A DNA stretch of 56,838 nt, taken from NCBI GenBank assembly GCA_002706085.1, contig PAJO01000028.1, positions 152,923 to 209,760 on the forward strand, written 5' to 3'. Below are positions 11,157 to 27,672 of the stretch, piece by piece. Below the pieces are notes generated by a model. The model saw only the letters and a program-made list of their open reading frames with translations. It was not told the DNA's origin and made no database searches. The stretch is from Alcanivoracaceae bacterium (GTDB lineage Bacteria > Pseudomonadota > Gammaproteobacteria > Pseudomonadales > Alcanivoracaceae). Each line of letters opens with the position of its first letter. The first letter of the stretch is position 1. A program made the position numbers and the translations under genes.

Positions 11157-12806
11157 TCAGTTAACGATCCGTTCCTTGTCGAAAAAGGCTTCGATCAGCC
11201 ACTGGTTATAACCGCCCAGTCGCTTGCCTTCGAGGCGGGCCTGCGCCTCATGATAAATCGGATGGTGCTCCATGCTTTTGGGCAAAAGTACTTGTGCGGT
11301 CCAGGTAAAACCCCGAATCCAGGCGTAATTGAATTTCTGCCACCAGCCGTATTTCATGTCGTACTGATCCCGGATACGCGGCGGTAGTTCGGCCGAGGTG
11401 ATGATTTCCTGCCCCCACAGCGGAGCAATCATCCAGATGGATTTGGGATCAAACAGGTCGTCCTTGAGTTGCATCGCATTGGGCGTGACCGTCAGCTGCG
11501 GGCTCGCCCACATGGCCTCGTTGTAGGCCATAAATTCATCCCAATCCGACGGCAAGGCACTTTCCGGGATGCCGAACAACATGGCGAACAGCTTGGTCTC
11601 TTCGTAGAACTGGTCTTTTTCTTGTGGTGTCAGTTTGTGTTCCAGCTTTTCGTACATGTGCACGATGGTTTCCCACAAGGTGGCATGCACCCAGATCATG
11701 GCGCTGACTTCATTGGCACGGTACGCCGAGCCATGATGGAACGCACCGGCCTGCTCGGTCATTTCTCCTTCAATTTCCTCATGGATATTGCGCACCTGGT
11801 TCGCCGACGCCATGACCTGCGGCATGCTGCCAAAGACCATGCTGGAAATGTGATAGAAGGTGCGCCGCGCCCGGCCAAGAGGGTCATTGCGGACTTCAGA
11901 GTGCTGGTCGATCCCCGCAGTGACCCAAGGATGAGCGACTTGTAACAACAAGGCACGACCCGCCCCAAAAGCCGGCGGCGCCCCAAGCCCATCGAGCTTC
12001 CACATCATCGAATCCGGACCGAACAAACCTTCGCGGGAGCTGGGCAGTTTGTTATCGTGAATTTTTGCCAGCTGACGACAGAAATCCACTTCGTTGATCC
12101 ACCGTGGTAACGGCGCGCGGCCGTCGCGTGGCACCAACTGCCCGACCACATCCTGTGCCCGTACGGGGTCAACACTGGCCGCTACCGTGGTGTCACTTAC
12201 CCCTTGTTCACAAGGGTGGGAAAGGAACCCAGTGTCGCCTCGCACCATCTCCCATACCAGGCTTTTGCCATCAGCCTCGAACTTGATCTCTGAAGGCAGG
12301 CGATAGCCACCCTGCAGGGACATGTAATCGCGGTATTCGATCTCCCAGCCCGCTTCTTCAATGCGGTCAGCCAGGTACATGTCTTCCTGATAAAGGGTTG
12401 CGTCCTCGGTAGCGGGCAAACCGCGTAACCAGTAAGACAGCTTGGCAGTGTCGATTGCATCATGCAGATGGCGGGCAATGGACAGGGCCTCGGCCCCGCC
12501 AGAGGCGTCGACCGTGGAGCGACCGGATTCGAATACATTGCCGCGAATGACCGCCCGCGGAGCCCCCACCGGGTCATCCATCAAGACAGCCAGTTCATAG
12601 TTTTCACCCACTTGCTGGTAAGTGAAGTAACTTTTGCTTTTCCCCTGATCGGCGAAAAGCGCAAATTTCCCTTCTACTCGCCACTCACTCAACCCCTCAG
12701 GGGACTGAGGGACAAAGTGAGATTCCTTAAGAGAGGAACAGCCTTGCAACGTCAGCAGTAACGCAAGGAACAGCAGCTTGCTCCGGCACAACAGCACAGC
12801 GCACAT
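11157..12806 (-). CDS. LolB-like / DUF2236 (MpaB-Lcp type oxygenase) fusion lipoprotein, copy 1
   Basis: 549 residues. The signal peptide ends in lipobox LQGC (Cys23). Ser follows the Cys, so outer-membrane sorting is expected. Residues 40-195 resemble LolB, the outer-membrane lipoprotein acceptor: WRVEGKFAL, a DDPVG loop (77-81) where LolB has its membrane-inserting NPLG loop, SYWLRGLP (124-131), and GWEIEYRDY...LPSEIKF. Residues 230-549 are a DUF2236 domain: GPDSMMW (263-269), QVAHPWVTAG (289-298), DPLGRARRT (308-316) and IWVHATLWE (371-379), with H374 the likely haem ligand by analogy to latex-clearing protein. A 39-nt gap separates it from the upstream acyl-CoA ligase, so the two are probably co-transcribed. 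Copy 2 at 15596 is collinear with it. The domain calls are by eye; the substrate is unknown. Confidence 0.8.
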   Translation of the reverse strand: MCAVLLCRSKLLFLALLLTLQGCSSLKESHFVPQSPEGLSEWRVEGKFALFADQGKSKSYFTYQQVGENYELAVLMDDPVGAPRAVIRGNVFESGRSTVDASGGAEALSIARHLHDAIDTAKLSYWLRGLPATEDATLYQEDMYLADRIEEAGWEIEYRDYMSLQGGYRLPSEIKFEADGKSLVWEMVRGDTGFLSHPCEQGVSDTTVAASVDPVRAQDVVGQLVPRDGRAPLPRWINEVDFCRQLAKIHDNKLPSSREGLFGPDSMMWKLDGLGAPPAFGAGRALLLQVAHPWVTAGIDQHSEVRNDPLGRARRTFYHISSMVFGSMPQVMASANQVRNIHEEIEGEMTEQAGAFHHGSAYRANEVSAMIWVHATLWETIVHMYEKLEHKLTPQEKDQFYEETKLFAMLFGIPESALPSDWDEFMAYNEAMWASPQLTVTPNAMQLKDDLFDPKSIWMIAPLWGQEIITSAELPPRIRDQYDMKYGWWQKFNYAWIRGFTWTAQVLLPKSMEHHPIYHEAQARLEGKRLGGYNQWLIEAFFDKERIVN

Positions 12807-12845
12807 GGGAGACTCGCTTTATTATTCTGATTGTTAACGCCGGCG

Positions 12846-14516
12846 TTATGCCGGCTGTCTCAGGGATTTCTTGTCAATCTTGCCAACGGAGGTCAGCGGA
12901 ATCGCATCAATAAAGAACACTTCCTTGGGGACTTTATACGGCGACATGTTTTCCCGGCAGAAACCCTCCAGCTCGGCCTTCAGCGCTTCTTCAGACTGTT
13001 GGCAATCCGGGGTGCGTTCCACGTAAAGCTGAACGACGTCATTACCTGGACGTTTAGTATCAGGGCGGCCAACAACGGCACACATGGCAACCCAGGGCAG
13101 GCTTTGTACCTTGCCTTCCACTTCCACGGAAAACACTTTGTAGCCACCCACAATCAGCATGTCCTTGCTGCGGTCGCAGACACGAACGAAACCGTCTTCG
13201 TCCATGACGCCCACGTCCCCGGTGTGCATCCACAACTTGCCGTCCATCTCGCGCAAGGATTTCTTTGTCGCTTCAGGCATTTCAAGATACCCCTGCATGA
13301 CCTGCGGACCGGAGGCGATGATTTCACCGGCTTCGCCCAGCGGCATCAGGGTGGTGCCATCTTCAGCATCCACGATACGCACATCGGTGCCCGGCAGGGG
13401 AATGCCCACATGGGCTTCCTTGAAGTGCGAGGCCGGGTTCAGAGTGATCACCGGGCTGGTTTCGGTCATGCCATAGACTTCACAGAACTTGCCTGCACCC
13501 ACCACGCTTTCCAGCTTCTGGACTTCTTCCTTGGCGAACGGAGCCGCTCCGGAAATAGCCATCCGCAAACCGGAGAAATCCAGGCCCTTGAACGTTTCAT
13601 TGGCGCACAGCATCTGATAAAGCGCCGGCACCGCGGCCAGCACGGTCGGGGTGCGTGTTTTCATTTCGCTGACGAAGTGATCGATATCACGAGGGTCCGG
13701 GATCAGCAGGAACGTGGCAGCGGTGCGCAGCGCGTTAAATACCACCGCCGCACCACCGATGTGGAACAACGGGAAGGCGGACGCCACGGTTTCTTCACCG
13801 GTGCGGTAGCCATAAAACTCGTTGGCCTGCAGATTATTCATGAACAGGTTGCGTGAGGTGAGCTTGGCGCCCTTGGGCAGCCCGGTGGTGCCCCCGGTGT
13901 ACTGCAGGTACAGCACCTTATCCATGTCCACACGGGTGTCGACAGGCTCCGCCGTAGCTGGCAGGTGATCATGCAGGGAAATCCCCTGAACCCCTTCCAC
14001 CGTGGCGTCAATCGCTTCACCCTGTCCGGTCATGATATCCATGGGGCCGGAGACGATCACCGTCGACAGGGTGGGTACCTTGCCCAGCACCGGCTGGACT
14101 GAGGTTTGCCAGAACGGTACCAGCGTCATCAGGATCTTCACCTTGGCATCGTTGGCCTGGTGAGTAATTTCTGGCGGGGTCATCAGTGGCGAAATACTGG
14201 TGGTCACCATGCCAAGGCGGGCGGCAGCAATAAAACCAATCACATATTGCGGCGTGTTGGGCAACTGCATGCCCAGCACGTCACCTTCACCCGCGCCTTG
14301 TTCAGCAAACAAGGCCGCCATGCGGTCTGCCAGTTCATCCAGCTGCTTGTAGGTAATTGCCTGCCCCAGAAATACCAGCGCTTCGCGATCCGGGAATTGT
14401 GCTGCATAGCCACGAACATAATCGGACAGGGTTTTTTCCGGCAACTCAGGCAGGGTATACCAGTCCTTGCCAAGAGATTCGTAGGTGGACAGCCAGGGGC
14501 GATTTTCCTGATTCAT
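12846..14516 (-). CDS. long-chain acyl-CoA ligase (AMP-binding family)
   Basis: A 556-residue ANL-superfamily adenylate-forming enzyme that would activate a fatty or other carboxylic acid to its CoA thioester in the cytoplasm. Motifs are the P-loop YTGGTTGLPKGA (206-217), the acyl-binding YGMTETSPV, MHTGDVGVMDEDGFVRVCDRSKDMLIVGGYKVFSVEVE, and the C-terminal lysine region VGKIDKKSLR. The family is FadD-like, but substrate chain length cannot be read from sequence. It is followed 39 nt downstream by the LolB-DUF2236 copy 1 gene. Its placement suggests it handles acids released by the oxygenases. The ATG is at 14516-14514. Upstream lies a gene-poor stretch. Confidence 0.9.
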   Translation of the reverse strand: MNQENRPWLSTYESLGKDWYTLPELPEKTLSDYVRGYAAQFPDREALVFLGQAITYKQLDELADRMAALFAEQGAGEGDVLGMQLPNTPQYVIGFIAAARLGMVTTSISPLMTPPEITHQANDAKVKILMTLVPFWQTSVQPVLGKVPTLSTVIVSGPMDIMTGQGEAIDATVEGVQGISLHDHLPATAEPVDTRVDMDKVLYLQYTGGTTGLPKGAKLTSRNLFMNNLQANEFYGYRTGEETVASAFPLFHIGGAAVVFNALRTAATFLLIPDPRDIDHFVSEMKTRTPTVLAAVPALYQMLCANETFKGLDFSGLRMAISGAAPFAKEEVQKLESVVGAGKFCEVYGMTETSPVITLNPASHFKEAHVGIPLPGTDVRIVDAEDGTTLMPLGEAGEIIASGPQVMQGYLEMPEATKKSLREMDGKLWMHTGDVGVMDEDGFVRVCDRSKDMLIVGGYKVFSVEVEGKVQSLPWVAMCAVVGRPDTKRPGNDVVQLYVERTPDCQQSEEALKAELEGFCRENMSPYKVPKEVFFIDAIPLTSVGKIDKKSLRQPA

Positions 14517-15044
14517 ACAAGCACCTTAAGCATATTATTCACGTTATTGACTTGAGGGTGGGAAGCGTCCGTCTTCGGAAGCGACTCCATCAGCTCCCTC
14601 GTAACCCTTGCCTGTTGGCAGGCAAGGCCCCATCACCGCCCGGAGCGCATTGCCAGGCAAACCCCGGCAGCCATTCGACCGGGATTATTCCTGTCCAAGA
14701 TAGAGGCAGACGGGATACAGGTCTTTAGCCATATCTGCCATCCGGGGTTTATCTTTGATCATGCCGAAGATCGCTTTCGCGCCTTCTCCGCATTGACACA
14801 CAGCTCCGCTGCTTGCCGCTCTCAACTCAGCTACGTAGACGATGCCAGGCGAGTATCCCTGCCATTTCGCGCCAGAAAATATATTTTCAATATCTTTGTT
14901 TACCTTGGGTGCATTCCGATAATCCTTAACGACCAAGAGGCGGGAAAAGTGGCAAAAAAAAGACCTGGCCAGTCCCCCTTTCAGAGGCCCGGCACAGGTC
15001 GAACGCACACTACTTAACAACGAGAATCCAAACCTTGCCTGGAA
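14517..15044. other. 528-nt gene-poor stretch with hairpin and possible degenerate ORF
   Basis: Between the FMN-binding gene and the acyl-CoA ligase on the minus strand. It holds the terminator at 14954-15000, an A+T-rich patch near 14876-14935, and a perfect 9-bp hairpin at 14606-14627 (CCTTGCCTG, loop TTGG). A minus-strand reading frame of up to 111 codons (15020-14685) contains the peptide KDIENIFSGAKWQGYSPGIV and ends in a cysteine-containing tail. It has only TTG-type starts, begins upstream of the terminator hairpin, and matches nothing I recognise. It could be a gene remnant. Confidence 0.4.
14954..15000 (-). terminator. rho-independent terminator after the FMN-binding gene
   Basis: On the minus strand GACCTGTGCC pairs with GGCCAGGTC and is followed by eight T (complement of the A run at 14954-14961). 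It lies 45 nt below the stop of the FMN-binding gene and probably ends the LolB-DUF2236 copy 2 / FMN transcript. Confidence 0.75.
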
Positions 15045-15596
15045 CTATGGGGAAGCCTGTACCGATTGGTGCAACACCAACGCCATGGCCGCCACCCGAT
15101 TCAACGCATCCACGAACAAGGTGGCACCGGTAATGCCATCCACCTGCCCTGACAAGGCATCTGCCTCGGTCAGGCGCATGCCCAAATACTGCTTCCGGAA
15201 GGCCGCTTGATGAATCTCTCCCCCACGGGGCTCGCGGTACACCAGCAGCTCAATCACCGCAATCTCACCCTCCGGATTGATGCCAATGCCGATCGTCATT
15301 GGCATATCCTTGCTCTTTTCATCAATTATCCAGGCGGTGGTGCCATCTTGCTGCCAGTAACGCAGGCGCATGCCACTGTAACGATGACCCAATACCGCTT
15401 CTGCCCGCTTGCGGGTATCACCACGCAGCGGCATCAGCGAAATGGAAGGCACATTTTCGCCATACACCTTGGCCAGGAAGGCCTCAGGTTTCAGGTATTC
15501 GGTTTCGTCGTACGCCGCCCCTGCCGGCATGACGATGACCGCCAGCATCAATACGCTTAACGCACGTATTGATGCCCAAGCTCGTATGACCCTCAT
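15045..15596 (-). CDS. exported FMN-binding domain protein (NqrC/RnfG-type flavin site)
   Basis: 183 residues. A signal peptide (to about residue 27, AGA) is followed by one FMN_bind domain. The C-terminal motif DGITGAT (153-159) matches the covalent flavinylation consensus in which ApbE attaches FMN through a phosphoester to the last Thr (T159). Such small periplasmic flavoproteins pass electrons to extracytoplasmic reductases. The ATG at 15596 shares one base with the stop of the upstream LolB-DUF2236 copy 2 gene (TGATG), so the two are translationally coupled and probably work together. A role as electron donor to the oxygenase is inference. The gene ends before a terminator. Confidence 0.8.
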   Translation of the reverse strand: MRVIRAWASIRALSVLMLAVIVMPAGAAYDETEYLKPEAFLAKVYGENVPSISLMPLRGDTRKRAEAVLGHRYSGMRLRYWQQDGTTAWIIDEKSKDMPMTIGIGINPEGEIAVIELLVYREPRGGEIHQAAFRKQYLGMRLTEADALSGQVDGITGATLFVDALNRVAAMALVLHQSVQASP

Positions 15597-17245
15597 CAAT
15601 TAACCAACCTTTCCTTATCGAAAAACGCCTCGATAAAGAACTGGTTGACGCCGCCCAGTCGCTCACCCTCAAGGCGAGCCATGGCTTCGTGATACACCGC
15701 CTGGCGCTCCATGTTCTTCGGCAGCAGCGCCCCCAGAGTCCAGGCCCCGGCACGCATCCAGCCATAGTTCATTTTCTGCCACCAGCCGTATTTCATGTCG
15801 TACTGATCCCGGATACGCGGCGGCAATTCGGCGGAAGTAATGATTTCCTGCCCCCACATGGGAAAAATCATCCAGATGGATTGAGCCTTGAACAGATCAT
15901 CCTTGAGACGCATGGCCGCTGGGGTCACTGTGAGCTGCGGACTGGCCCACATGGCGCGGTTGTAATCCATGAATTCGTTCCAGTCCGCCGGCAAGGCACT
16001 TTCCGGGATGCCGAACAACATGGCGAACAGCTTGGTTTCCTCGTAGAAACGGTCTTTCTCCTGCTGGGTCAGCGGCTCCTCCATCTTTTCATACATATGA
16101 ACGATGGTTTCCCAGAGAGTCGCGTGAACCCAGATCATGGCGTTGATTTCGTTGGCCCGGTATTCAGAACCGCGGGCAAAAGCGCCACTTTCTTCAGGCA
16201 AATGCCCTTCAATCTCTTCGTGAATATCACGAACCTGATTGGCTGACGCCATCACCTGGGGCATGCTGCCGTAGGTCACACTAAGAATGTGATAGAAGGT
16301 TCGGCGTGCGCGGCCTAACGGGTCGTTGCGTACTACCGAGTGCTCATCAATCCCTGCCGTAACCCAGGGATGCGCCACCTGGAGCAATAGCGCACGGCCC
16401 GCACCAAAGCTACCTGGCAATGCCATACCGGACAGACGCCACATCATCGAATCCGGACCATAAAGCCCCACCCGAGCATCCGGCAGCTGGTTGCCGTGAA
16501 TCTTGCGCAGCTGCTTACAGAAATCCGCCTCATCAATCCATCGAGGCAGCGGCGCACTACCATCACGGGGCACCAGCGTGCGAACCACATCTTCACCGCC
16601 GGCCTGCTCCACTGACGCTTCAATTTCTTCGTCTGTCAGGTTTTGCCCGCACGGGTTGGTCAGGTAACCCGTCTCTGCACGGACAATATCCAGCCGTAGA
16701 TTTTTGCTGTCACCATTGAACTTGATCTCCGCCGGCAACTTGTAATTGCCGGTGACAGACATGTAGTCATGGAAATAAATCTTCCAGTCGTCTTCCTCGA
16801 TTTTCTTGGCCAGATTCGTGCCCTGCTGGGTGATCTTGGCATCGGCTGTAGCCGGTAGCCCACGGATCCAGTAGGACAACGATCCCGCCTTCATTACCGA
16901 TTGCAGATGCTGGGCAACTTTTTCTGCTTCATACCCACCAATCACATCCAGGGTTTCGTTTTCCGGCTCGTAGATATTGCCCAGGATCACCGCCTTGGGT
17001 TTGCCCACAGGGTCATCACCGAGAATGGCCAGCTCGTAGTTCTCATCAATCTGCTTGAAGTAGAAATGGCTTTTGCTCTTGACGCCATCGGCGCGCAGTT
17101 CCAATGAGCCTTCGACCATCCACTCACTCAGTGTTTCGGGAGACTTGGGCACATAATCGGACTCTTTCAGGGAAGAGCACCCCTGGAGTACTACCAATAC
17201 CAACCCAACAAGAAGGACCTTCGCATTACTGCTCAGTAAGTTCAT
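15596..17245 (-). CDS. LolB-like / DUF2236 fusion lipoprotein, copy 2
   Basis: 549 residues, collinear with copy 1. The lipobox is LQGC (Cys23, then Ser). The LolB-like region (40-195) holds the same landmarks: the DDPVG loop (77-81), SYWIRGLP (124-131), W154 and LPAEIKF. The DUF2236 domain (230-549) has GPDSMMW, QVAHPWVTAG, DPLGRARRT and WVHATLWE (H374). My hand count between the copies gives about 54% identity over residues 24-230 and 78% over 231-549, so the oxygenase half is under stronger constraint. It is coupled to the FMN-binding gene. The start ATG at 17245 has only a weak site (GAGAGTCTC); copy 1 shares the GAGTCTC word upstream. Confidence 0.8.
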   Translation of the reverse strand: MNLLSSNAKVLLVGLVLVVLQGCSSLKESDYVPKSPETLSEWMVEGSLELRADGVKSKSHFYFKQIDENYELAILGDDPVGKPKAVILGNIYEPENETLDVIGGYEAEKVAQHLQSVMKAGSLSYWIRGLPATADAKITQQGTNLAKKIEEDDWKIYFHDYMSVTGNYKLPAEIKFNGDSKNLRLDIVRAETGYLTNPCGQNLTDEEIEASVEQAGGEDVVRTLVPRDGSAPLPRWIDEADFCKQLRKIHGNQLPDARVGLYGPDSMMWRLSGMALPGSFGAGRALLLQVAHPWVTAGIDEHSVVRNDPLGRARRTFYHILSVTYGSMPQVMASANQVRDIHEEIEGHLPEESGAFARGSEYRANEINAMIWVHATLWETIVHMYEKMEEPLTQQEKDRFYEETKLFAMLFGIPESALPADWNEFMDYNRAMWASPQLTVTPAAMRLKDDLFKAQSIWMIFPMWGQEIITSAELPPRIRDQYDMKYGWWQKMNYGWMRAGAWTLGALLPKNMERQAVYHEAMARLEGERLGGVNQFFIEAFFDKERLVN

Positions 17246-17370: not shown

Positions 17371-18267
17371 TTACCGGGCGGACGCGCTCATTCTGTAAGC
17401 TTCCGGGTGCTTTCTCGCATCTTCGAATGCCTTGCGTGCCATGGGTATCAAGCGCATTTTCTTCGGCGTCAGTGCGTACATGACCCGATAGAACCGGCAC
17501 CAGAGACGAAAACGACGCTCGTCACCCTTGCTCCATGGAATATCAAATTTCTCACGAAACTGGTGCGGCAACGTGGCCCGCAGATTGAAACGCAGGAACC
17601 GGCCAACCACCGCACGAAGCATTTTCCAGGCCGTATCAGGCAGCCAATCCACCGGCGGCTTGGGGATTTCCAGATAATGGTTATGGGCCAGCAAGTCTGA
17701 CGCCACCTCCCCCATTTCCAGCTTGTTCTCGATCATGCCATTAAAGTAGGCCCAGTATTCACTCTCGTTGACCGGTAGATCCTGCTCGCGGATCCCCATC
17801 AGCAAACCCAGCTGACGCCATTCATTGAACATGACGGTGCGTTCTTCCGTGGTTGGGGATTTACCCAGCATCTCATGCATGCGGATCGTAGCGTCATAAC
17901 CGGTGATATGGACCCAGCTATACGCTTCCGGGTCCAGCGAAAAGTATTTTTTGCCGTGCTTGTCGACGCCTTTGATCGAACGGTGCAGGTCATACAGCTT
18001 GACCCCCATTTCAATCGCTTTCTGGGGGCGCGCATACACAATGGGCCAAAGCAGCGCAGTGGAGCGCTTGGCTCGCCCCCAGGGATCCGTTTTGTAAACC
18101 GAATGCTCGCCTACACCCGCATCCACAATCGGATGAGCCACCTGCAGAACAAATGCCTGGGGCAGCATCAGATTGAAACGCCAGGAACCGAAGTCTTGCC
18201 AGGTCATGGAATCCGGGCCGAGGGGCTTCAGCACATCACGGCGTGATCGCTCGGGGGTTTGTGTCAT
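17371..18267 (-). CDS. stand-alone DUF2236 (MpaB/Lcp-type oxygenase) protein, no signal peptide
   Basis: 298 residues from the ATG at 18267, chosen because AGGAG lies 7 nt upstream; longer upstream reading is not supported. DUF2236 landmarks are LGPDSMTW (16-23), LQVAHPIVDAG (41-51), DPWGRAKRS (61-69) and YSWVHITGYDATIRM (116-130), with H120 the candidate haem ligand. It lacks the LolB-like domain and any export signal, so it is predicted to be cytoplasmic or membrane-peripheral. The C-terminal third is basic (LRFNLRATLPHQFREKF). It is the first gene of the minus-strand accessory cluster, 125 nt above copy 2, and is divergent from the Ig-like lipoprotein gene. Its reaction is unknown. Confidence 0.8.
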   Translation of the reverse strand: MTQTPERSRRDVLKPLGPDSMTWQDFGSWRFNLMLPQAFVLQVAHPIVDAGVGEHSVYKTDPWGRAKRSTALLWPIVYARPQKAIEMGVKLYDLHRSIKGVDKHGKKYFSLDPEAYSWVHITGYDATIRMHEMLGKSPTTEERTVMFNEWRQLGLLMGIREQDLPVNESEYWAYFNGMIENKLEMGEVASDLLAHNHYLEIPKPPVDWLPDTAWKMLRAVVGRFLRFNLRATLPHQFREKFDIPWSKGDERRFRLWCRFYRVMYALTPKKMRLIPMARKAFEDARKHPEAYRMSASAR

Positions 18268-18574: not shown

Positions 18575-21500
18575 ATGACGAATCGCTCACAGTTACGCCT
18601 CGGCATACTGCTCCCCGCATTCGCCGCCGCCATCACAGGCTGCGGGGGGGAGAACCAACCGTTTGTTAGTCAGGAACCCGGCAACGCACTGATCTATACC
18701 TACCCGGTAGAGGGCATGGTCGATGTCCCGACCCCAAGCAAGGCGTTGATGGTGTTTTCCAGCGGTGTTAGCGAATCCGCCGTGATGTCCAACTGCACCG
18801 GCACGGCAGATGACCCCGTGGGTGGCTTTTGTGTAACCGGCCCTGACGGGCCGGTCGATACCGCCAGCCACACCAATATCATTAACGACGGCCGTACCAT
18901 CGAATTCAGCATGAAGGGGCTGAAGCCCGGCACCACCTATCAGGTCTGGCTGCACCGGGAAGTCTCTCCCAGCGCCGAAAACCTGGATAACAGCAAACCG
19001 GTGTTCAGCTTCACTACCCGTCAGGAAAGCCCGATCAAGGGTCAGCAACCTGCGGTTCTGGCGTTTAACCAGGACAATCCAGAAGCGTTTATTGACGGCA
19101 GTGAGGTGACAACTCAGTTCCCGATCGTGGACATTTCCCCTGTTCGTCTTACCTTCAATGAACCCTTGTTCGAAGACTCCCTGGTACTCGGCGAGTCGGT
19201 CCAGTTCATCAAGATCAATGACGACAACAGCGAAGAGGCAGTGGATGTAGACATGCTTGCCGAGCGTCACTACATCACCTTGCAGCCCCAACAGGACATG
19301 CAGCCTGACACCCGCTATGAAGTTCGCCTGAGTGGCGACATTGTGGATCTGAATGGCGAAGCACTGTCACCGGTGACCTACAGTTTTGAACCTCGTGCCT
19401 CGAAGGCCTCGCCGGACGCCGCCAATCCACCGGTTGGCCAGACACTGCAAACCTTCCCCGACATGGAAACCCCTGGTTACCCGGGCCGCTCCAAGATTAC
19501 CGGCGGGCCAACCAACCAGTTCACTCTGGAAAGCACCGCATTGGGTACCAACGTGGCCAACTCCCTGCCCAATGGCCTGGAAGCCTTCCTTGCCAACCCG
19601 CAGGATTTTGGTGGCGTTGTCACCCCGGTTCTGGCCCGCAAAGGCCAGCAGCTGCAACTGACCGGGATTGACCCGGCCAAGCTTGGCGGTGAAGTCCATA
19701 CAGACCTGAGCACGGGTTTGATCACGGGCACTTTCCTGAGCAACGTGACCGGCTACCTGATGCCCAATATTTATCGTCCTGCAGGCTTCCAGCCTGATGA
19801 CGAACGGGCACCACTCTACGTCTATATGGATTTTGATCTGTCGCTGCAGACTGAAAACCTGCAAGGCAATGCCACACTGAACCAGAACCTGATGCACATC
19901 CGTGCCATTGGTGTGGCCACCATTGAAAACCACGTCCTGACGCTGGAAGTGTTCCGCACATTGCAGCTGGATGTTCTCGGTGGCGCCACCAAGGTGGCCG
20001 CAGACTTCAATCTGCAAGCCAAAGCGGATCCCGCTGTTGTCGTGGACTACACCAACCATGATGCGCCCTTTGTCAGCGGAGCCTATCCGTCTGATGGCAA
20101 AGTTGGCGTAGAAACCAACGACAATATTCTGTTGGCGTTCAACGAGCCCCTGAGCCCCGCCGGTCTGGATGAAATCCAGCTGCTGGATATGGGCAATGGC
20201 GGCACCCCTGTCGAGGTCATGGTCAAACGTAGCGGCACCAGCCTGACCATCTCGCCCCAGGCCCGCCTGAATCCGGCTACTGAATATCAACTGATTCTCA
20301 GCAGCAACATCACCGACATCCATGGCAGTAATCCGCTGCCGCTGTCCTCCAGCGCAGAAGACGCCCTGGGGGGTGATAACACCCTGACCTTCACCACTGC
20401 CGACTACACCCGTACCGCCAATGCCGCTGAAGGGGCTCCGCCAATCATTCTTGGCCTGCATCCGGGTATCGGATGTTCTCTGGTTGAGACCGGCGTGCCG
20501 GGTTATGCCGGTCGCTGTAAGGGCGGCCAGGATGATGACGAGCTCTACCTGGACTTCCAGTACGAGATCGGTCGTGTCATCGAGGCCTCATTCAGCCAAC
20601 CGATGGATACCGATTCCATGGTGCTCGGCACCATTGCCGCAGATGGCAACTCCTGTGTAGACGGGCCGATCTGTCTGGCTCGCAATGTGGATGAAAACTG
20701 GGAAAGCATTACCGCAGCACTGGTTCCCAGTAACCTGAAGTTCCAGATTTACCCTGCCGACAGCACTTTTGTAGACGGCGAGGAGTATCGACTGGTCGTA
20801 AATGGTGACAGCTCACCGAAGTTCTACAGCCATGACACCTTGGGCCACCTGCCGCTGAACACCACCCCAATGGAGGGGATTGGCAAGACCAGCACCCATA
20901 ATTCCGAAGGGGGTAGCAATATCGTCATCGACTTCAAGGCGGTGGCGCCATTCGACACCGTATACGCCACCGTCTATACCCGTCCGTATTCCGACTATAA
21001 CGGCAGCGGCGGCTGGGATGATGGTGAGCCCCAGCCCTGCACCGAATGGAACGGGGATGGCACTCCGGTAGAAGAGAGCTGCAGCAACTTCGCCACCGCC
21101 GATGTACTGGACACCGGAGGGCTGATTACCAGCGCCAGCCTGATCGAAGGTCGAGACAAGATCTTTGCTACCGGGGCGCTGCCCATGGCGTTTAAACCCA
21201 AACAGCCACTGGACCTGGCCCTGCCTGACCTCGGCCTCGAAGAACAGGGCGATGGCAGCTGGTGCATGCCCGAACCCGATGACCTGGGCGAGACCCCATG
21301 CCTGAATGTGGTAGGCGACACCATGATCCCCGTGGAGGTTAACCATCAGGTTATTCTGGGCACCGGCCTGACCATCAATGCAAATGTCGGTCTCGATTTT
21401 GGCTTCACTGAACTGGCCATTCCGCTCAAGCTCAACACACGTTCCGTTCTGCTGCGCACCCGTCCAGAGCGCCCTGATCCGCAGAGCGATGTACTGCCGC

Positions 21501-21934
21501 TGAATGGCTACATCGTGAACCTGGAAGGTGAACAGAAGCCTTACTTTGTGGTGCGCCTGCCTGCCTGGCTGGATGTCCCCGATCTGGATCTGGTCGCAGC
21601 CCTTCAGGAGTCCATCTTCGGCGCGGGCAATGACTTTCTGTCTTTCGCTCAGCTGAATGATTTTGTCGACCAGTACGGAGCTTCACATACGGCAAAGAGC
21701 CTGCCGATCGTCGCTTACCTGTATGGCCCAATCAGCTTCCAGGATGACGGCCGCATCACCCTCAAGGTAAGCAACCTCAACAATATTCAAGCCACGCTTG
21801 GCATTGAGCTGCTGCCCGGTCTTTTGGGGCTCAGCGCAGGTTCAGCAGACCTGCTGCTACCCGCAGAGCAGGTCAGCCTGCAGGTCATGAACCTGCCCTC
21901 CCGTGCCCGCAAACTGCCTGAGAACGCACAATAA
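18575..21934 (+). CDS. large multi-domain Ig-like outer-membrane lipoprotein
   Basis: 1119 residues. The signal peptide ends in lipobox ITGC (Cys23). It carries repeated SbsA/Big_5-type Ig-like modules, each opening with a YPxxGxxxVxxxxxxxxxFS/NE pattern: about 42-148 (ends FSFTTRQ), 185-272 (TFNEPLFED...YSFEPR), and 500-610 (GAYPSDGKVGVETNDNILLAFNEPL). A further SFSQPMDTDSM element is near 670. The C-terminal 300 residues contain acidic, cysteine-bearing segments and no recognised enzyme motif. Such proteins are surface adhesins or scaffolds. It is followed 10 nt later by the OmpW-like gene, so the two form an operon. GGAG lies upstream of the ATG at 18575. A role in binding an insoluble substrate is inference. 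Confidence 0.75.
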   Translation: MTNRSQLRLGILLPAFAAAITGCGGENQPFVSQEPGNALIYTYPVEGMVDVPTPSKALMVFSSGVSESAVMSNCTGTADDPVGGFCVTGPDGPVDTASHTNIINDGRTIEFSMKGLKPGTTYQVWLHREVSPSAENLDNSKPVFSFTTRQESPIKGQQPAVLAFNQDNPEAFIDGSEVTTQFPIVDISPVRLTFNEPLFEDSLVLGESVQFIKINDDNSEEAVDVDMLAERHYITLQPQQDMQPDTRYEVRLSGDIVDLNGEALSPVTYSFEPRASKASPDAANPPVGQTLQTFPDMETPGYPGRSKITGGPTNQFTLESTALGTNVANSLPNGLEAFLANPQDFGGVVTPVLARKGQQLQLTGIDPAKLGGEVHTDLSTGLITGTFLSNVTGYLMPNIYRPAGFQPDDERAPLYVYMDFDLSLQTENLQGNATLNQNLMHIRAIGVATIENHVLTLEVFRTLQLDVLGGATKVAADFNLQAKADPAVVVDYTNHDAPFVSGAYPSDGKVGVETNDNILLAFNEPLSPAGLDEIQLLDMGNGGTPVEVMVKRSGTSLTISPQARLNPATEYQLILSSNITDIHGSNPLPLSSSAEDALGGDNTLTFTTADYTRTANAAEGAPPIILGLHPGIGCSLVETGVPGYAGRCKGGQDDDELYLDFQYEIGRVIEASFSQPMDTDSMVLGTIAADGNSCVDGPICLARNVDENWESITAALVPSNLKFQIYPADSTFVDGEEYRLVVNGDSSPKFYSHDTLGHLPLNTTPMEGIGKTSTHNSEGGSNIVIDFKAVAPFDTVYATVYTRPYSDYNGSGGWDDGEPQPCTEWNGDGTPVEESCSNFATADVLDTGGLITSASLIEGRDKIFATGALPMAFKPKQPLDLALPDLGLEEQGDGSWCMPEPDDLGETPCLNVVGDTMIPVEVNHQVILGTGLTINANVGLDFGFTELAIPLKLNTRSVLLRTRPERPDPQSDVLPLNGYIVNLEGEQKPYFVVRLPAWLDVPDLDLVAALQESIFGAGNDFLSFAQLNDFVDQYGASHTAKSLPIVAYLYGPISFQDDGRITLKVSNLNNIQATLGIELLPGLLGLSAGSADLLLPAEQVSLQVMNLPSRARKLPENAQ

Positions 21935-21944
21935 GGACAACAAC

Positions 21945-22835
21945 ATGCAGAACATGAAACACGTTCTGCGCCTGCCGGCGCTCGCCGCCGGCCTGGCGCT
22001 GTGCGCCCCGCTGATGGCGCAAGAAAGAACCATCCCGGAATACGATGATGTACGTGTCGATTACCCCGGCTCGGACTTTGTCCGCGATGTCGCGGGCGAA
22101 GATCGCTTCTTCTTTCGTTTTGGTGCCATGCACTTTGCCCCGGATGTGAAAACCAATTACATCCAGGCCAAAAACCTGTCCGAAGTGGCTGAGACCGCCC
22201 TGGGCGGACCGGGCCCACACTACCTGGAAGGGGAAGCCGCTGCAGATCCACTGCTGCTACCGGGCATCATTCTTGGCTACAAGCTCCCCTGGGGGAAAGG
22301 TTGGTCCGTGGAGTTGATTGCCTCGGCCCCCCCGACCCTGGAACTTAAAGCCGAAGGCAAACTGGCCAATGAACCTCTGGTACCGGAAGTGAATGGTATC
22401 CCCACAGGTGTGCCGGCACTGGGTGAAGAAATCGCAGAAACCAAGGCCGCCCCCCCGCTGGTGACGCTGGTTAAACGCTTTCGCCTGAACAAGGGTATTC
22501 AGCCCTACCTGGGGGCGGGTATCGGGTACCTGTTCACCTTTGATACCAAGGTCACCAACCCGATCGCCACAGCGCTGGGTGAACCGGATATCGAGGTAGA
22601 CAACAAGTTCGGCTGGGCTGCCCAGGCGGGTCTGGATTTCCACCTTTCAAGGCACTGGTGGCTGTCACTGGATACCAAGTACATCAGCTTCCCGGACGTT
22701 TCTGCCACGGTGTCCAACATGGTGGTCGAAGCACCCGGCATTCCCCAGTTCCCTTATGCGGAAGTGGGTGATGTGGAGTACAACGCTGACATCAATGTAC
22801 TCGCCTACACACTGGGTATCGGTTTTACCTTCTAA
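21945..22835 (+). CDS. OmpW-family outer-membrane beta-barrel
   Basis: 296 residues. A signal peptide ends near ...PLMA at residue 25. The mature protein has the OmpW pattern: FFFRFGAMHFAPD near the start, PGIILGYKLPWGKGWSVEL, PYLGAGIGYLF, WAAQAGLDFHLSRHWWLSLDTKYI, and a terminal aromatic strand ending TLGIGFTF. OmpW/AlkL proteins form eight-stranded barrels that admit small hydrophobic molecules. The central loops are longer than usual. The ATG at 21945 is chosen for AAGGA at 21933-21937; longer upstream reading overlaps the preceding gene. It ends before a bidirectional terminator. Confidence 0.88.
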   Translation: MQNMKHVLRLPALAAGLALCAPLMAQERTIPEYDDVRVDYPGSDFVRDVAGEDRFFFRFGAMHFAPDVKTNYIQAKNLSEVAETALGGPGPHYLEGEAAADPLLLPGIILGYKLPWGKGWSVELIASAPPTLELKAEGKLANEPLVPEVNGIPTGVPALGEEIAETKAAPPLVTLVKRFRLNKGIQPYLGAGIGYLFTFDTKVTNPIATALGEPDIEVDNKFGWAAQAGLDFHLSRHWWLSLDTKYISFPDVSATVSNMVVEAPGIPQFPYAEVGDVEYNADINVLAYTLGIGFTF

Positions 22836-23531: not shown

Positions 23532-23950
23532 TGAGACCCCGTTATGATCATCGTTATGAAGGCAGTCGTTACCCAAAAGAGTAACGGTAGCAAATACTTA
23601 CCTAAACGTGAACGGTGGTGAAAGGACAAACCCCACCCTCTCGAAAAAAACGGCCCAGACGGGCTCAAACATACTCAAAACCTTGCATTTCATTTACCCC
23701 TCGGCCTCCGTCTGATGGCACACATCCAAATTATGACTAACAAGTCACATTATGGGATTGTGCACTGGAATCAATGAGACGATTAGAATAATCTGTATCA
23801 CAGTCGCATTTGTCCTCTTGATGCTCCACGCATGAATTCCTGAGCGCAGCGATCCGGGCAGACGTACCGGCGCAGACGCAGGCCTGCCAAATACCCCGCC
23901 CGGAGATAACAACAAATAAATTTCGACACAAAGTCGGAGGTATGCGTGCA
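23532..23950. promoter_or_regulatory. divergent control region tetR / RoxA-like gene
   Basis: A CGTTATGA word occurs at 23540-23547 and 23552-23559. CGTTAC (23567-23572) is followed by its inverse GTAACG (23581-23586). All lie just above the tetR start and are candidate TetR operators. Nearer the RoxA-like gene is the palindrome GATTAGAATAATC (23781-23793). The remainder holds no gene that I can support. The RoxA-like start is served by GGAGG at 23936-23940. Confidence 0.45.
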
Positions 23951-26254
23951 ATGAAAACCCCAACCCCACGAAGATTCTATTCACGCTGGAAAGCATGGGC
24001 CCTCATGGTCACGGCTGCCGCGATCACCACCGGGTGTGGCGGCTCCGGAGATGTGGATACTGTGAAGCATTCCAGTAACGATTCCCCCCCACAGGCCACC
24101 AGCAACACCGCCCAGCTTGGCCCGACTGCCGACAACATCGTACCGCTCTCGACGCAAAGCGCTGTCAGTAAGGCGTCCTACGCTGCGGGTCAGGGAAGCG
24201 CACCGCCAGCCTATGATGGCAGCGCTGCCGACCCTTACCATGACGAACCGCCCGTTAACGTCTACAACCGCCCCGCCGACTATGACCCCTATGCGCTGCT
24301 CGGCGAAAGTAGCCGTGGCGGCTGGCCGGTGTGGGATTTTTGCTATGGCCAGCCGGACGATACCGCCCTGCCCCAAGACCCACGGTCCATGGTCCAGCCC
24401 GGCGTCAGCTACGGCAAGGCCGTTCACTTCAACGCCTACTGGAAAGACTGCCACGTGGACCCGGAAGCGGTGCAGGAAGTGGGCAGCGCCAAGACCTGTG
24501 GCGAACTGCGTGAACGCTTTGAATGGGGCGGTCGACTGCTAACGGGGGGCTCCGAAGGCGTTGGCGCCCTGTTTGCCGGCACCGATCCCTACACGCTGGA
24601 AGGCGCCATGGGGATCTCCACCCTGACCGCCGGGCAATACCGGCGCCTGTGGAAGTCCTGGGGCAAGTATCTGGCGCAACCGGGTGATTATGATCGTCGC
24701 GTTGCCGAACGTTATGGCTCCCCGCTGAGCGACGTCCGCAACCCCTACCCGCTGGCCGGGGAAGACCCGAACAAAACCGATGGCGGTTCCGGTCAGCTGC
24801 CTCTCATGTTCACCCAGATGCGCCTGAAAGACGGCTCCTGGTCCGGGCGAATCGGGGTGACCTGTCACGCTTGCCACAGTGGCAATGTGGAACACAACGG
24901 CATGGGCAACACGCTGGGTAGCGGCAGTCCGCTGGCCGATCTGGATCTGTTCCTGCGTGACGCACTGCCGCAGGGTTATCTGGCCTCAGTCGCCACCATC
25001 GCCAACCTGAGCCATGGGCGTGGCACCAACAACGCCTCTGACGTGAACCTGGCCTTTATCTTTCCAGACGAGGGTCTCTACTCTGCCCGCGATTTTGTTG
25101 GCCTGATTACCAGTGGCTCCACCGCGTCCATGGACACCCCAGCCTGGTGGAACCTGGGCCACCGTCCGGTGAAATTTGTGGACGGCCTGTTCCCCGCTGA
25201 TGCGCACCGGGTCGATCAGGTGTTCTACACCCCCATCTTTGGTCTCTTTGGTGCTGTGCTTGGTCCATTGAGCGAAGCCGGCCAGGACTACATGCGCGCC
25301 GCAGGGCCGCCCATCAATGCCTGGATCGAAACCCTCAAAGCACCAGAATATCCCGGACAGATCGATACCGCTCTGGCCGAACAGGGGGCAGTGCTGTTCC
25401 ATGAACTGGACATGTGGGGGCCGGATCGCAATAACCCGGTTGATCGCCCTGAAGGGAATGGTTCCTGTGCAGGCTGCCACGGCGCCTACTCGCCACGCTA
25501 CGTGAACGACCCGAACTTCCTCGCCGACCCGGCACTGGAAGGGGTTGCCTCCTACATCGTACCGCAACGCATTATCGGCACGGATGCCGTGCGCTGGCAG
25601 ACCAACAACGAAAGCATGCAGCGCGCAGGCACCGTGAACTTCTTCGGCTATCCGCCCACCCATGGCACCGAGAATGACTGCGGCCCCCAAAATCAGGAAC
25701 GTCTGCGTGGCGACCGCGAACTGGGTTACCTGGCACCGCCCCTGTACGGCGCCTGGGCCACCGCCCCGTATCTGCATAACGGTGCCATCCCGGACATGTG
25801 GACACTGCTCAAGCCGTCGGAACGTCCCGCCATCTGGCGACGGGTATCCGCGCCGAAGATGAAAAACCCGTGGTACAACAACGGCAACGTCGTCATGGGC
25901 TTCGACACCAACTTCGAGCGCGCCTATGACGAGCAGAAAATGGGCTGGAAGTACGACAAGATCCAGTGCGAATGGCGCACCTGGTGGAACCCGGCTGTGA
26001 CCCCGGGCTATACCTGTGATCCCAACGATGAACGTAACACCCCGTTGGCACAGAACATCCTGGGCGCCCTGTTCGACAACCTGATCCTGGCATGGAATAT
26101 CTGGGCACCGCCGACCATTACCAACGCCCAGGTGGAAGATCGCAAGATCTACAACACCATCCTCTACAGCCAGGGGAACGAGGGACACGAGTTCAACAGT
26201 GTACTGACAGACCAGGAACGCCTGGCCATTATCGAGTACCTGAAGACACTCTGA
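23951..26254 (+). CDS. RoxA/RoxB-like dihaem c-type cytochrome lipoprotein
   Basis: 767 residues from the ATG at 23951, chosen because GGAGG ends 10 nt upstream; the in-frame ATG at 23942 is only 1 nt from it. Lipobox TTGC gives Cys29. Two haem-c motifs are CHACH (305-309) and CAGCH (506-510), about 201 residues apart, close to rubber oxygenase RoxA (195 and 394 for the two His). PPLYGAWATAPYLHNGAIP (His609) is the MauG/RoxA signature. GHEF (His746) near the C-terminus sits where RoxA has the distal ligand of its second haem. The RoxA family cleaves polyisoprene double bonds outside the cell. This protein would be anchored to a membrane rather than secreted. The substrate is inferred only. 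Confidence 0.82.
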   Translation: MKTPTPRRFYSRWKAWALMVTAAAITTGCGGSGDVDTVKHSSNDSPPQATSNTAQLGPTADNIVPLSTQSAVSKASYAAGQGSAPPAYDGSAADPYHDEPPVNVYNRPADYDPYALLGESSRGGWPVWDFCYGQPDDTALPQDPRSMVQPGVSYGKAVHFNAYWKDCHVDPEAVQEVGSAKTCGELRERFEWGGRLLTGGSEGVGALFAGTDPYTLEGAMGISTLTAGQYRRLWKSWGKYLAQPGDYDRRVAERYGSPLSDVRNPYPLAGEDPNKTDGGSGQLPLMFTQMRLKDGSWSGRIGVTCHACHSGNVEHNGMGNTLGSGSPLADLDLFLRDALPQGYLASVATIANLSHGRGTNNASDVNLAFIFPDEGLYSARDFVGLITSGSTASMDTPAWWNLGHRPVKFVDGLFPADAHRVDQVFYTPIFGLFGAVLGPLSEAGQDYMRAAGPPINAWIETLKAPEYPGQIDTALAEQGAVLFHELDMWGPDRNNPVDRPEGNGSCAGCHGAYSPRYVNDPNFLADPALEGVASYIVPQRIIGTDAVRWQTNNESMQRAGTVNFFGYPPTHGTENDCGPQNQERLRGDRELGYLAPPLYGAWATAPYLHNGAIPDMWTLLKPSERPAIWRRVSAPKMKNPWYNNGNVVMGFDTNFERAYDEQKMGWKYDKIQCEWRTWWNPAVTPGYTCDPNDERNTPLAQNILGALFDNLILAWNIWAPPTITNAQVEDRKIYNTILYSQGNEGHEFNSVLTDQERLAIIEYLKTL

Positions 26255-26522: not shown

Positions 26523-27647
26523 TTACGCGGAGCGGGCAATTTCCATCAAGTGCACATCCGCGTTACCGAACAGGCCATCCACCGCACTCAGGCGTTTGAC
26601 GAAATGGCCCACATTCAGCTCGTCAGTCATACCCATGCCACCATGAATCTGAATGGCTTCCTGACCGATCTTGCGACCGGCACGACCCAGTTGGGCCTTC
26701 ATGGCGTGGACAGCCTTGGCCGCATCATCGTGACCTTCCACCAGTTTCATGGTGGCAGCCATCAGCAGCGATTTGGTCTGCTCCATGGCAATGAACATGT
26801 CTGCCATACGGAATTGCAGCGCCTGAAACTTGCCGATGGGCAGGCCGAACTGCTTGCGGGTCTTGCTGTATTCCACCGTGTCGTTCAGCAGCACGGTGAG
26901 GCTGCCGGTGCACTCAGCCGACAAGGCCAGCAGCCCTTCCAGCAGCACAGTGCGGGCGATGTCATAGCCCTGGTTCAGCTCGCCGATACGGGCAGCCTCT
27001 GCCACCTTCACGTTGCTGAAACGGATTTCCGCGCCCTGACGACCGTCCACAGTGCGGTGCGGCGTACGTTCAACACCATCAGCGTTGGCATCCACCAGGA
27101 ACAGGCTAAGGCCGTCCTTGTCACCGGGCTGACCCGCGGTACGAACCAGCACGATCAGTTGATCCGCATGATCCCCATTGATGACACACGCCTTGGTGCC
27201 ATTGAGCACCACATCGCCACCCTGCACCTCGCCTTTCATGGCGGTGTTTTCCAGGGTAAAGACGCGCTCGTATTCCTCTGCCGCAAACGCCAACTGCAGA
27301 CCACCTTCCAGCAGGGAAGGAATGGTTTCTGCCTGCTGCGCGTCAGAGCCGTGACGCAGGAAACCGCCGCCCAATACTACGGTGGCAATGTACGGCGCCA
27401 TGATCAGGCCTTCGCCCAGTTCCTGCAGCAGCACCATGGTTTCCAGCGGGCCCATGCCCAGACCACCGTGCTCTTCAGCGAACGGTACAGCCAGCCATCC
27501 CAGTTCGGCAAACTGTGCCCAAGTGGCTTCATCCAGCGGCATCAACTTCTTGTTCTGGCGGTGCTTTTCCACGTCGTGGTTGTCACGGACAAAACGCTTG
27601 GCGCTGTCCGCCAGCATTTGCTGTTCTTCACTCAACTGAAAATTCAT
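26523..27647 (-). CDS. acyl-CoA dehydrogenase family protein, second subunit type
   Basis: 374 residues from the ATG at 27647 (AGGAG upstream; the longer frame runs into the preceding gene). It begins MNFQLSEEQQMLADSAKRFV and has the acyl-CoA dehydrogenase fold: GWLAVPFAEEHGGLGMG, a beta domain, ARTVLLEGLLALSAECTG, YSKTRKQFGLPIGKFQALQ, and IQIHGGMGMTDELNVGHFVKRL. It is paired with a second acyl-CoA dehydrogenase 25 nt upstream. Such unequal pairs often form a heteromeric enzyme in which one subunit holds FAD and the other the catalytic base, as in sterol side-chain oxidation. The substrate here is unknown but may be branched or bulky. Confidence 0.9.
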   Translation of the reverse strand: MNFQLSEEQQMLADSAKRFVRDNHDVEKHRQNKKLMPLDEATWAQFAELGWLAVPFAEEHGGLGMGPLETMVLLQELGEGLIMAPYIATVVLGGGFLRHGSDAQQAETIPSLLEGGLQLAFAAEEYERVFTLENTAMKGEVQGGDVVLNGTKACVINGDHADQLIVLVRTAGQPGDKDGLSLFLVDANADGVERTPHRTVDGRQGAEIRFSNVKVAEAARIGELNQGYDIARTVLLEGLLALSAECTGSLTVLLNDTVEYSKTRKQFGLPIGKFQALQFRMADMFIAMEQTKSLLMAATMKLVEGHDDAAKAVHAMKAQLGRAGRKIGQEAIQIHGGMGMTDELNVGHFVKRLSAVDGLFGNADVHLMEIARSA

Positions 27648-27672
27648 CTGACTTCTCCTTGTTGGCGGACGC

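Follow-up and report, generated by a model that had tools for sequence, protein, structure and literature searches.

A LolB domain joined to an MpaB/Lcp-type domain in predicted outer-membrane lipoproteins of Alcanivoracaceae and relatives, with a candidate flavoprotein partner

We analysed a 56,838-nucleotide stretch of the genome of an Alcanivoracaceae bacterium (assembly GCA_002706085.1, contig PAJO01000028.1, positions 152,923 to 209,760; hereafter the window) that encodes two proteins, A and B, in which a LolB-like region precedes a DUF2236 domain of the MpaB/Lcp type. An earlier note, made from the DNA letters alone, had placed two 549-residue proteins here, each with a lipobox at Cys23, and both were confirmed as minus-strand open reading frames (ORFs) carrying that cysteine (Table 1). 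A and B are 67% identical, and genes for an acyl-CoA ligase and an unfused DUF2236 protein lie in the same strand run. The earlier note had passed over these two genes, as well as the FMN_bind gene coupled to the fusion, the PepSY gene of relatives, the canonical LolB encoded elsewhere in the genome and the nearby RoxB-type gene.

Table 1. Features at and around the fused genes, in window coordinates.
Feature	Position	Strand	Basis
Fused lipoprotein A, LolB + MpaB/Lcp (DUF2236), 549 aa	11157..12806	minus	ORF, Pfam
LolB domain of A, residues 41-180	12267..12686	minus	PF03550, E 5.5e-14
MPAB_Lcp_cat domain of A, residues 278-504	11295..11975	minus	PF09995, E 6.9e-51
Fused lipoprotein B, LolB + MpaB/Lcp (DUF2236), 549 aa	15596..17245	minus	ORF, Pfam
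LolB domain of B, residues 41-187	16685..17125	minus	PF03550, E 2.7e-12
MPAB_Lcp_cat domain of B, residues 269-502; carries R312, T316, H342	15740..16441	minus	PF09995, E 2.3e-50
FMN_bind protein, signal-like N-terminus, motif DGITGAT, overlaps end of B	15045..15599	minus	PF04205, 23.1 bits, cut-off 22
AMP-binding long-chain acyl-CoA ligase-like, upstream of A	12846..14516	minus	PF00501, E 1.6e-82
Third, unfused DUF2236 gene, start at MTQTPE methionine	17371..18267	minus	PF09995, E 7e-56
Big_5 repeat protein, lipobox-like N-terminus, divergent neighbour	18575..21934	plus	PF13205, E 3e-33
OmpW-like outer-membrane barrel, neighbour	21903..22835	plus	PF03922, E 5.5e-16
RoxB-type dihaem rubber dioxygenase relative, neighbour, putative system member	23942..26254	plus	NF050034, 1071.9 bits, cut-off 900
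Two acyl-CoA dehydrogenase genes near operon	26523-28875		

Both domains scored well over their Pfam cut-offs, with 52.9 bits (A) and 47.4 bits (B) for PF03550 against a cut-off of 23.7, and 174 and 172.3 bits for PF09995 against a cut-off of 23. To find structural counterparts of the LolB-like region, placed at about residues 40-195 in the earlier note, a family profile was compared with Protein Data Bank (PDB) sequences. It reached five LolB chains, with E values between 1.3e-6 and 2.2e-6, including 1iwm, which we take to be E. coli LolB, as well as 8orn_B, an X. campestris LolB structure by its title, at E 0.003. A single-sequence PDB search with the window fused protein gave no useful match, and the profile was needed to reach LolB. 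In the alignment of the profile consensus to 1iwm, DDPVG fell on NPLG, WIRGLP on WILGLP and LPAEIKF on MPANMEL, so each of the motifs proposed earlier as LolB landmarks (DDPVG, GLP with W, and LPxEIKF) has its counterpart. The NCBI lolB equivalog TIGR00548 also matched A and B, at 42.9 and 39 bits, below its cut-off of 59.6, which counts against the LolB assignment.

A full-length structure model, built from 11 alignment rows, had a mean pLDDT of 53. Its seven best Foldseek matches were all LolB chains (E 2.2e-6 to 2.2e-4), which we read as agreement in fold and not as a usable model. Profile and fold searches both match the N-terminal part to LolB; the model is too poor to show a cavity. In this low-confidence model the DDPVG loop lies between strands 3 and 4, as does the protruding loop of E. 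coli LolB, whose tip residue Leu68 is crucial for lipoprotein insertion (PMC11885536). Three lineages supplied the 24 fused proteins that we compared, with 12 sequences of Alcanivorax, 4 of a sister genus in the window's family (g4) and 8 of another family of the same order (f29). The position equivalent to Leu68 (Val80 in the window protein, hydrophobic though not Leu) is occupied by Val in 22 proteins, by Ile in one and by Gly in one, and W126, L130, W154 and P171 are invariant in all 24. The fused proteins share with LolB (PF03550, TIGR00548) the fold, the lipobox, the hydrophobic protruding loop and the W..GLP landmarks; they differ from it in that the domain is only the N-terminal third of 549 residues, the window copies score below the equivalog cut-off, and canonical LolB is encoded separately.

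The second half was linked to Lcp through a profile of 24 diverse DUF2236 proteins, which matched Lcp 5o1m in the PDB at E 9.3e-7 and was aligned with 5o1m and 5o1l. Single-sequence PDB searches with the window fused protein and with its unfused DUF2236 neighbour did not reach Lcp. R312, R315, T316 and H342 align on LcpK30 Arg164, Lys167, Thr168 and His198. Three of these LcpK30 residues, Arg164, Thr168 and His198, are crucial (PMC5522427), and their counterparts R312, T316 and H342 are invariant in 24/24 fused proteins. By fold, Lcp was a weak match to the full-length model (5o1l at rank 15, E 0.03, prob 0.98). A fold search with a separate model of the haem half (17 rows, mean pLDDT 43) gave a best match at E 1.6, and Lcp was not among the matches. 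Single-domain close relatives align to about residues 236 to 547 of the fused protein, which bears out the span 230-549 of the earlier note for the whole homologous half. The fused ORFs do combine a genuine LolB domain with one of the MpaB/Lcp type. They resemble the MpaB/Lcp family (LcpK30, MpaB', Nro1) in having the catalytic domain over cut-off with the Arg164/Thr168/His198 equivalents kept, and differ in the LolB fusion, the lipid anchor, the flavin-protein gene, the Arg at the Lys167 position and two extra cysteines.

In E. coli, an Asp directly after the lipidated Cys retains lipoproteins at the inner membrane. The lipobox Cys is present in all 23 fused proteins whose alignment row reaches it (the L123 row begins after the lipobox), and the residue that follows is Ser, Gly or Ala in every one of them, never Asp, so the fused protein is predicted to lie on the outer membrane. 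To this extent the earlier reading of an outer-membrane enzyme holds: LolB is joined to an MpaB/Lcp domain with intact haem-site residues in a predicted outer-membrane lipoprotein. Besides the lipobox Cys, the only cysteines outside the signal peptide are Cys199, which closely follows the LolB domain, and Cys243, where the haem half begins. Both are present in all 24 proteins; the additional cysteines of copy A and L062 precede Cys23. No counterpart of Cys199 occurs in 30 canonical LolBs of the family, whose last Cys always falls at the lipobox, 170 to about 175 residues ahead of the C-terminus, and the unfused DUF2236 relatives L084, L085, L088, L109 and L110 have no Cys in the column of residue 243. 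Judging from this pattern, an inter-domain disulphide between Cys199 and Cys243 probably ties the halves together.

The fused architecture recurs in Alcanivorax, g4 and f29. Chance, assembly artefact or frameshift as the origin of the fusion was excluded, as the fused frame is found in many genomes. Among named genomes we found 11 loci: nine in Alcanivorax, one in a Pseudomonadales metagenome-assembled genome (MAG) and one in a Porticoccaceae MAG, the last on a 3.8-kb contig with 93% identity to the query. Across 46 genomes of the window's family, a second LolB match in a frame of at least 551 residues was present in 14/17 genomes of the window's genus, 4/7 of g4 and 0/22 others. Two of the 14 positive genomes of the genus have two fusion copies; the fusion frame of G011 is irregular (1194 residues), G009 has only a short partial LolB match, and G001 and G004 of the genus have no second LolB match in this survey. 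When stretches were fetched, 16 of 17 matched the fused protein from residue 22 or earlier to 549, and L067 matched residues 25-440. At the level of the order, matches spanning both domains occurred in 15 of 390 genomes, seven belonging to the window's family and eight to f29, and both Pfam domains were over cut-off in 8/8 f29 relatives. In draws from the class (369 genomes) and the phylum (398 genomes), which share genomes and in which genes truncated at contig ends may have escaped notice, the fusion appeared only in the window's own genome among the matches listed. One fused gene, L017 10001-11597, is split over two frames, a possible frameshift or assembly error.

We found no paper combining LolB and DUF2236 in the literature searched, subscription papers and preprints being outside its reach, and none of the papers there that pair any of the terms MpaB, DUF2236, latex clearing and flavinylated includes LolB. 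This fits the earlier statement that no protein of this architecture had been described, and the LolB-DUF2236 fusion is likely new in print.

Phylogenetic trees were built for each half. In the haem-half tree the fused proteins form one clade (support 100/99), and in the LolB-half tree, which holds 14 of the 30 canonical LolBs with frames chosen by phmmer, they form one side of a 100/100 split from the canonical proteins. Both trees warn of long branches, L123 in each and L084 in the haem-half tree. These topologies fit one fusion event followed by descent or transfer. A and B fall in different subclades of the haem-half tree, so they may be old paralogues, or one may have been acquired by transfer. 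The nearest unfused relative in that tree is L084/L125 from a further family of the order (f26; support 100/98, on a long branch). L125 has a signal-like start, no LolB domain, and directly behind it an FMN_bind gene with the motif DGISGAT; a flavin partner in a protein without LolB suggests that this partner goes with the haem half. LolB therefore seems to be a later addition to the haem domain, or a part that was lost if the tree misleads. The L125 arrangement is the strongest mechanistic clue in the data, suggesting that electron supply to the haem preceded placement at the membrane. Unfused DUF2236 proteins near the fused clade occur as extra copies in f29 genomes (L124 7131-8102; L117 616-1584). 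In the window's genome there are twelve PF09995 matches, one of which (C54:42003-42701) has an internal TAG.

In 22 of 23 loci the fused gene is immediately followed by an FMN_bind gene (10/11 Alcanivorax, 4/4 g4, 8/8 f29), the miss being L014, and the FMN_bind start overlaps or almost touches the stop of the fused gene across loci. This count leaves out L009, L011, L016, L017, L018, L058, L059, L061 and L063-L068, which repeat a genome already counted, are close relatives or lie on partial contigs; 12 of them show FMN_bind, and the two that do not are L058, from the same place as L014, and L011, whose contig breaks off within the fused gene. The motif D[GN]I[TS]GAT is present in each of the 22 FMN_bind proteins, and the motif for flavinylation by ApbE is D-x-x-[S/T]-G-A-[S/T] (PMC12052999). 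These proteins have a hydrophobic N-terminal signal as judged by eye only, and the window's genome encodes two ApbE genes. Using a profile built from 19 FMN_bind proteins, mostly from fused loci, we found 15 matches of at least 246 bits in 381 genomes of the order, with the next at 205.7 bits. Those 15 are exactly the 15 fusion genomes, and each match lies directly beside the fused gene. From sequence motif and gene position, the FMN_bind protein is likely the electron donor of the fusion.

The coupling of an FMN_bind gene with the ApbE motif to the fused gene is new, as is the PepSY_TM-cluster gene that comes next after FMN_bind in 10 of the 23 loci (1/11 Alcanivorax, 4/4 g4, 5/8 f29). Four of these ten genes were tested against Pfam and all four were over cut-off. 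Two histidines are conserved in 10/10 of the encoded proteins; FoxB, a PepSY-like protein of solved structure, has two conserved histidines per haem site (PMC11334425). The pairing of FMN_bind with PepSY points to an electron-fed outer-membrane oxygenase. In having a flavinylation-motif protein with a PepSY_TM partner, these ten loci resemble the PepSY-like flavinylated electron-transfer clusters described previously (PMC8238504), in which, however, the flavin substrate is mostly DUF2271 and the suggested role is iron reduction. The terms DUF2236 and LolB are absent from the main text of that eLife 2021 survey of flavinylation (PMC8238504), and DUF2236 was absent by term search from the accessible text of a 2024 mSystems paper. 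The window's genome has ten PepSY_TM matches, and a second FMN_bind-PepSY_TM pair (L136 5984-6493 and 6472-7248) lies behind a probable outer-membrane protein gene, without DUF2236 alongside.

On balance, and by no wide preference, we favour a reading in which A and B are periplasm-facing outer-membrane lipoproteins, their LolB copy now serving as the membrane-side part of a flavin-fed haem b oxygenase acting on an unsaturated hydrophobe. Taking as computed both domains, the haem-site residues, the lipobox, the single clade, the tight gene pairing and the flavinylation motif, we infer haem content, outer-membrane location, the direction of electron flow, the chemistry, the substrate and a hand-off from the LolB pocket. 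In outline, a duplicated LolB would have been turned into the membrane-side half of an MpaB/Lcp haem b oxygenase, and the secreted FMN_bind protein would be flavinylated by ApbE. A membrane PepSY haem protein, or another membrane donor, would reduce the covalent FMN in the periplasm; the adjacent PepSY-type gene would feed the flavin in 9 of the 12 g4 and f29 loci, and at the window's locus the flavin-reducing link would have to come from elsewhere in the genome. The reduced flavoprotein would then carry electrons across the periplasm to the outer membrane and reduce the fusion's haem there, after which O2 would bind. The substrate to be oxidised, most likely by cutting of a C=C bond, would be an unsaturated lipid or isoprenoid on the inner side of the outer membrane, and the product could be activated by the acyl-CoA ligase of the operon and enter beta-oxidation. 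A related precedent is Nro1, an MpaB-family nitrile rubber oxygenase thought to hold haem b and cut C=C bonds, whose lysate was assayed with H2O2 (PMC12724181); H2O2 in that assay may by-pass an electron donor.

Several points weigh against this reading. The haem content, flavin content and activity of the fused system are predictions, and both structure models (pLDDT 53 and 43) are too poor to show a pocket. On a per-gene count, an FMN_bind partner accompanies 22 of 25 fused genes; copy A, its L057 counterpart and L014 are without one. The window's FMN_bind protein is barely over the PF04205 cut-off (23.1 vs 22), and one g4 relative is below it (21.6). The gap in FMN profile scores arises partly by construction, given the origin of the profile in mostly fused loci; independent of that origin, the 381-genome draw held no fusion genome without an FMN_bind partner. 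No PepSY gene follows FMN_bind in 13 of the 23 loci, the window's included. To our knowledge, Lcp works without a known electron partner, so a donor role is not forced. The distal-ligand position of Lys167 is occupied by Arg315 in 23/24 fused proteins. However, this Lys is conserved in only 59% of Lcps (PMC5522427), and it is therefore not a strict criterion for an Lcp-type domain.

How far the LolB half takes part in catalysis is a separate matter. Divergence is faster in the LolB half (53% identity between A and B, 33-37% in five comparisons between lineages) than in the haem half (78% and 59-63%, respectively). Together with a loop position that is Val or Ile in 23/24 proteins, which suits membrane contact, and a nearest unfused relative without a LolB domain, this divergence favours a possible if tentative alternative in which the LolB half is only an anchor that docks via its lipid and protruding loop, the substrate entering the haem domain directly with no hand-off. 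The four invariant residues W126, L130, W154 and P171 are, however, more than a plain anchor seems to need, and the lipobox alone would anchor the protein. The opposite proposal, that the LolB cavity draws the hydrophobe from the inner leaflet of the outer membrane to the haem, powered by a periplasm-spanning flavin-to-haem wire, we regard as doubtful. Should it be true, a lipoprotein-trafficking receptor would have become the substrate-loading module of an enzyme. LolB is known for lipoprotein hand-over, and its reuse in an enzyme would be a new role for the fold.

The identity of the substrate separates two further alternatives from the favoured flavin-fed oxygenase. LolB-type cavities bind acyl chains, and the target could be the cell's own outer-membrane lipid, such as unsaturated or peroxidised acyl chains or quinones, with the oxygenase serving repair or remodelling and not catabolism. 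The same idea has been proposed for RoxC haem oxygenases, which are predicted outer-membrane lipoproteins (PMC10837239). RoxC resembles the fused proteins as a predicted outer-membrane-anchored haem oxygenase relative, but it belongs to the RoxA/RoxB-type family with c-type haems, and no LolB domain is reported for it in the accessible text (PMC10837239). We consider a role in the cell's own lipids unlikely, as the acyl-CoA ligase and, at one f29 locus, a FadL/TodX-type transporter look catabolic, and the lack of a match in G001 and G004 of the genus marks the system as dispensable.

Less likely still is that the fused proteins act alongside the product of the nearby RoxB-type gene in the breakdown of rubber-like polyisoprenoids. 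That gene is over its NCBI cut-off, RoxB likewise neighbours the operon in L010 and L014, and relatives of Lcp and MpaB cut C=C bonds, including those of isoprenoid chains (PMC5522427, PMC12724181). Yet it is present in only part of the loci, on the opposite strand and beyond two other genes; the fetched g4 and f29 stretches gave no RoxB match, and no paper in the literature searched linked MpaB with Alcanivorax. RoxB as a fixed partner was dropped, being near only part of the loci.

The window's genome encodes a canonical LolB elsewhere, separate from A and B, which argues against a lipoprotein-inserting role for the fusion. An ordinary LolB match was found in 45/46 family genomes, the sole miss being a 64% complete genome without the fusion. 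The fusion as a LolB replacement was ruled out for the window's genome and the family, where every fusion genome has canonical LolB; its persistence in f29 was not checked genome by genome. TIGR00548 was also run on two fused relatives from f29, of which one passed (59.9 vs 59.6 bits) and the other scored 30.3. A second LolB that still inserts lipoproteins, with the haem domain as a redox or oxygen sensor controlling insertion, would suit the kept LolB fold and hydrophobic loop, the passing f29 member and the similarity of LcpK30 to globin-coupled sensors (PMC5522427), but it is highly improbable given the ordinary LolB in nearly all family genomes and the retention, beyond the haem His, of the Lcp active-site Arg and Thr. 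The fused protein L116 9744-11327 clears the lolB equivalog cut-off by 0.3 bits, and automatic annotation may call it LolB.

If the favoured flavin-fed oxygenase reading is right, the poorly known DUF2236 oxygenases would gain a branch that is Gram-negative and membrane-anchored and that has a likely electron donor. The genes would also form a set for testing how marine oil degraders handle unsaturated or isoprenoid hydrophobes at their surface.

The genes around the fused gene and FMN_bind vary more. Loci of Alcanivorax and g4 usually run DUF2236 (about 300 residues), acyl-CoA ligase, fused lipoprotein and FMN_bind; in the window and L057 the order is DUF2236, B, FMN_bind, ligase and A, and in L009 it is DUF2236, a B-type gene, FMN_bind and ligase. 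The ligase cluster is present in 11/11 Alcanivorax, 4/4 g4 and 2/8 f29 loci, and the small DUF2236 gene in 10/11, 4/4 and 3/8, respectively. The fused gene and FMN_bind thus stay paired even in loci without the other genes. The third DUF2236 protein of the window showed no signal peptide on inspection by eye.

Among the neighbours, the RoxB-type protein has an N-terminal extension with a lipobox-like ITTGC. RoxB of strain 35Y is given as Sec-secreted and RoxC as a lipoprotein (PMC10837239), so RoxB in Alcanivorax is possibly lipid-anchored. In one f29 operon, a FadL/OmpP1-type gene (L117 6224-7888, minus strand), a distant relative of the FilD model (399 bits, cut-off 970), lies directly downstream of the PepSY gene. 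The FadL-type barrel and the OmpW-like and RoxB-type neighbours are consistent with a hydrophobic substrate without identifying it. A molybdopterin oxidoreductase-type gene, its copies grouping in one sequence cluster, is near the fused operon in 4/4 g4 loci (L052-L055) and one f29 locus (L117), the family assignment having been tested on the L117 copy only. Finally, a YdbH-like intermembrane phospholipid transport gene (L013 12228-14891, 410 bits) comes after FMN_bind in L013, and L016 has an ORF of similar length in that place.

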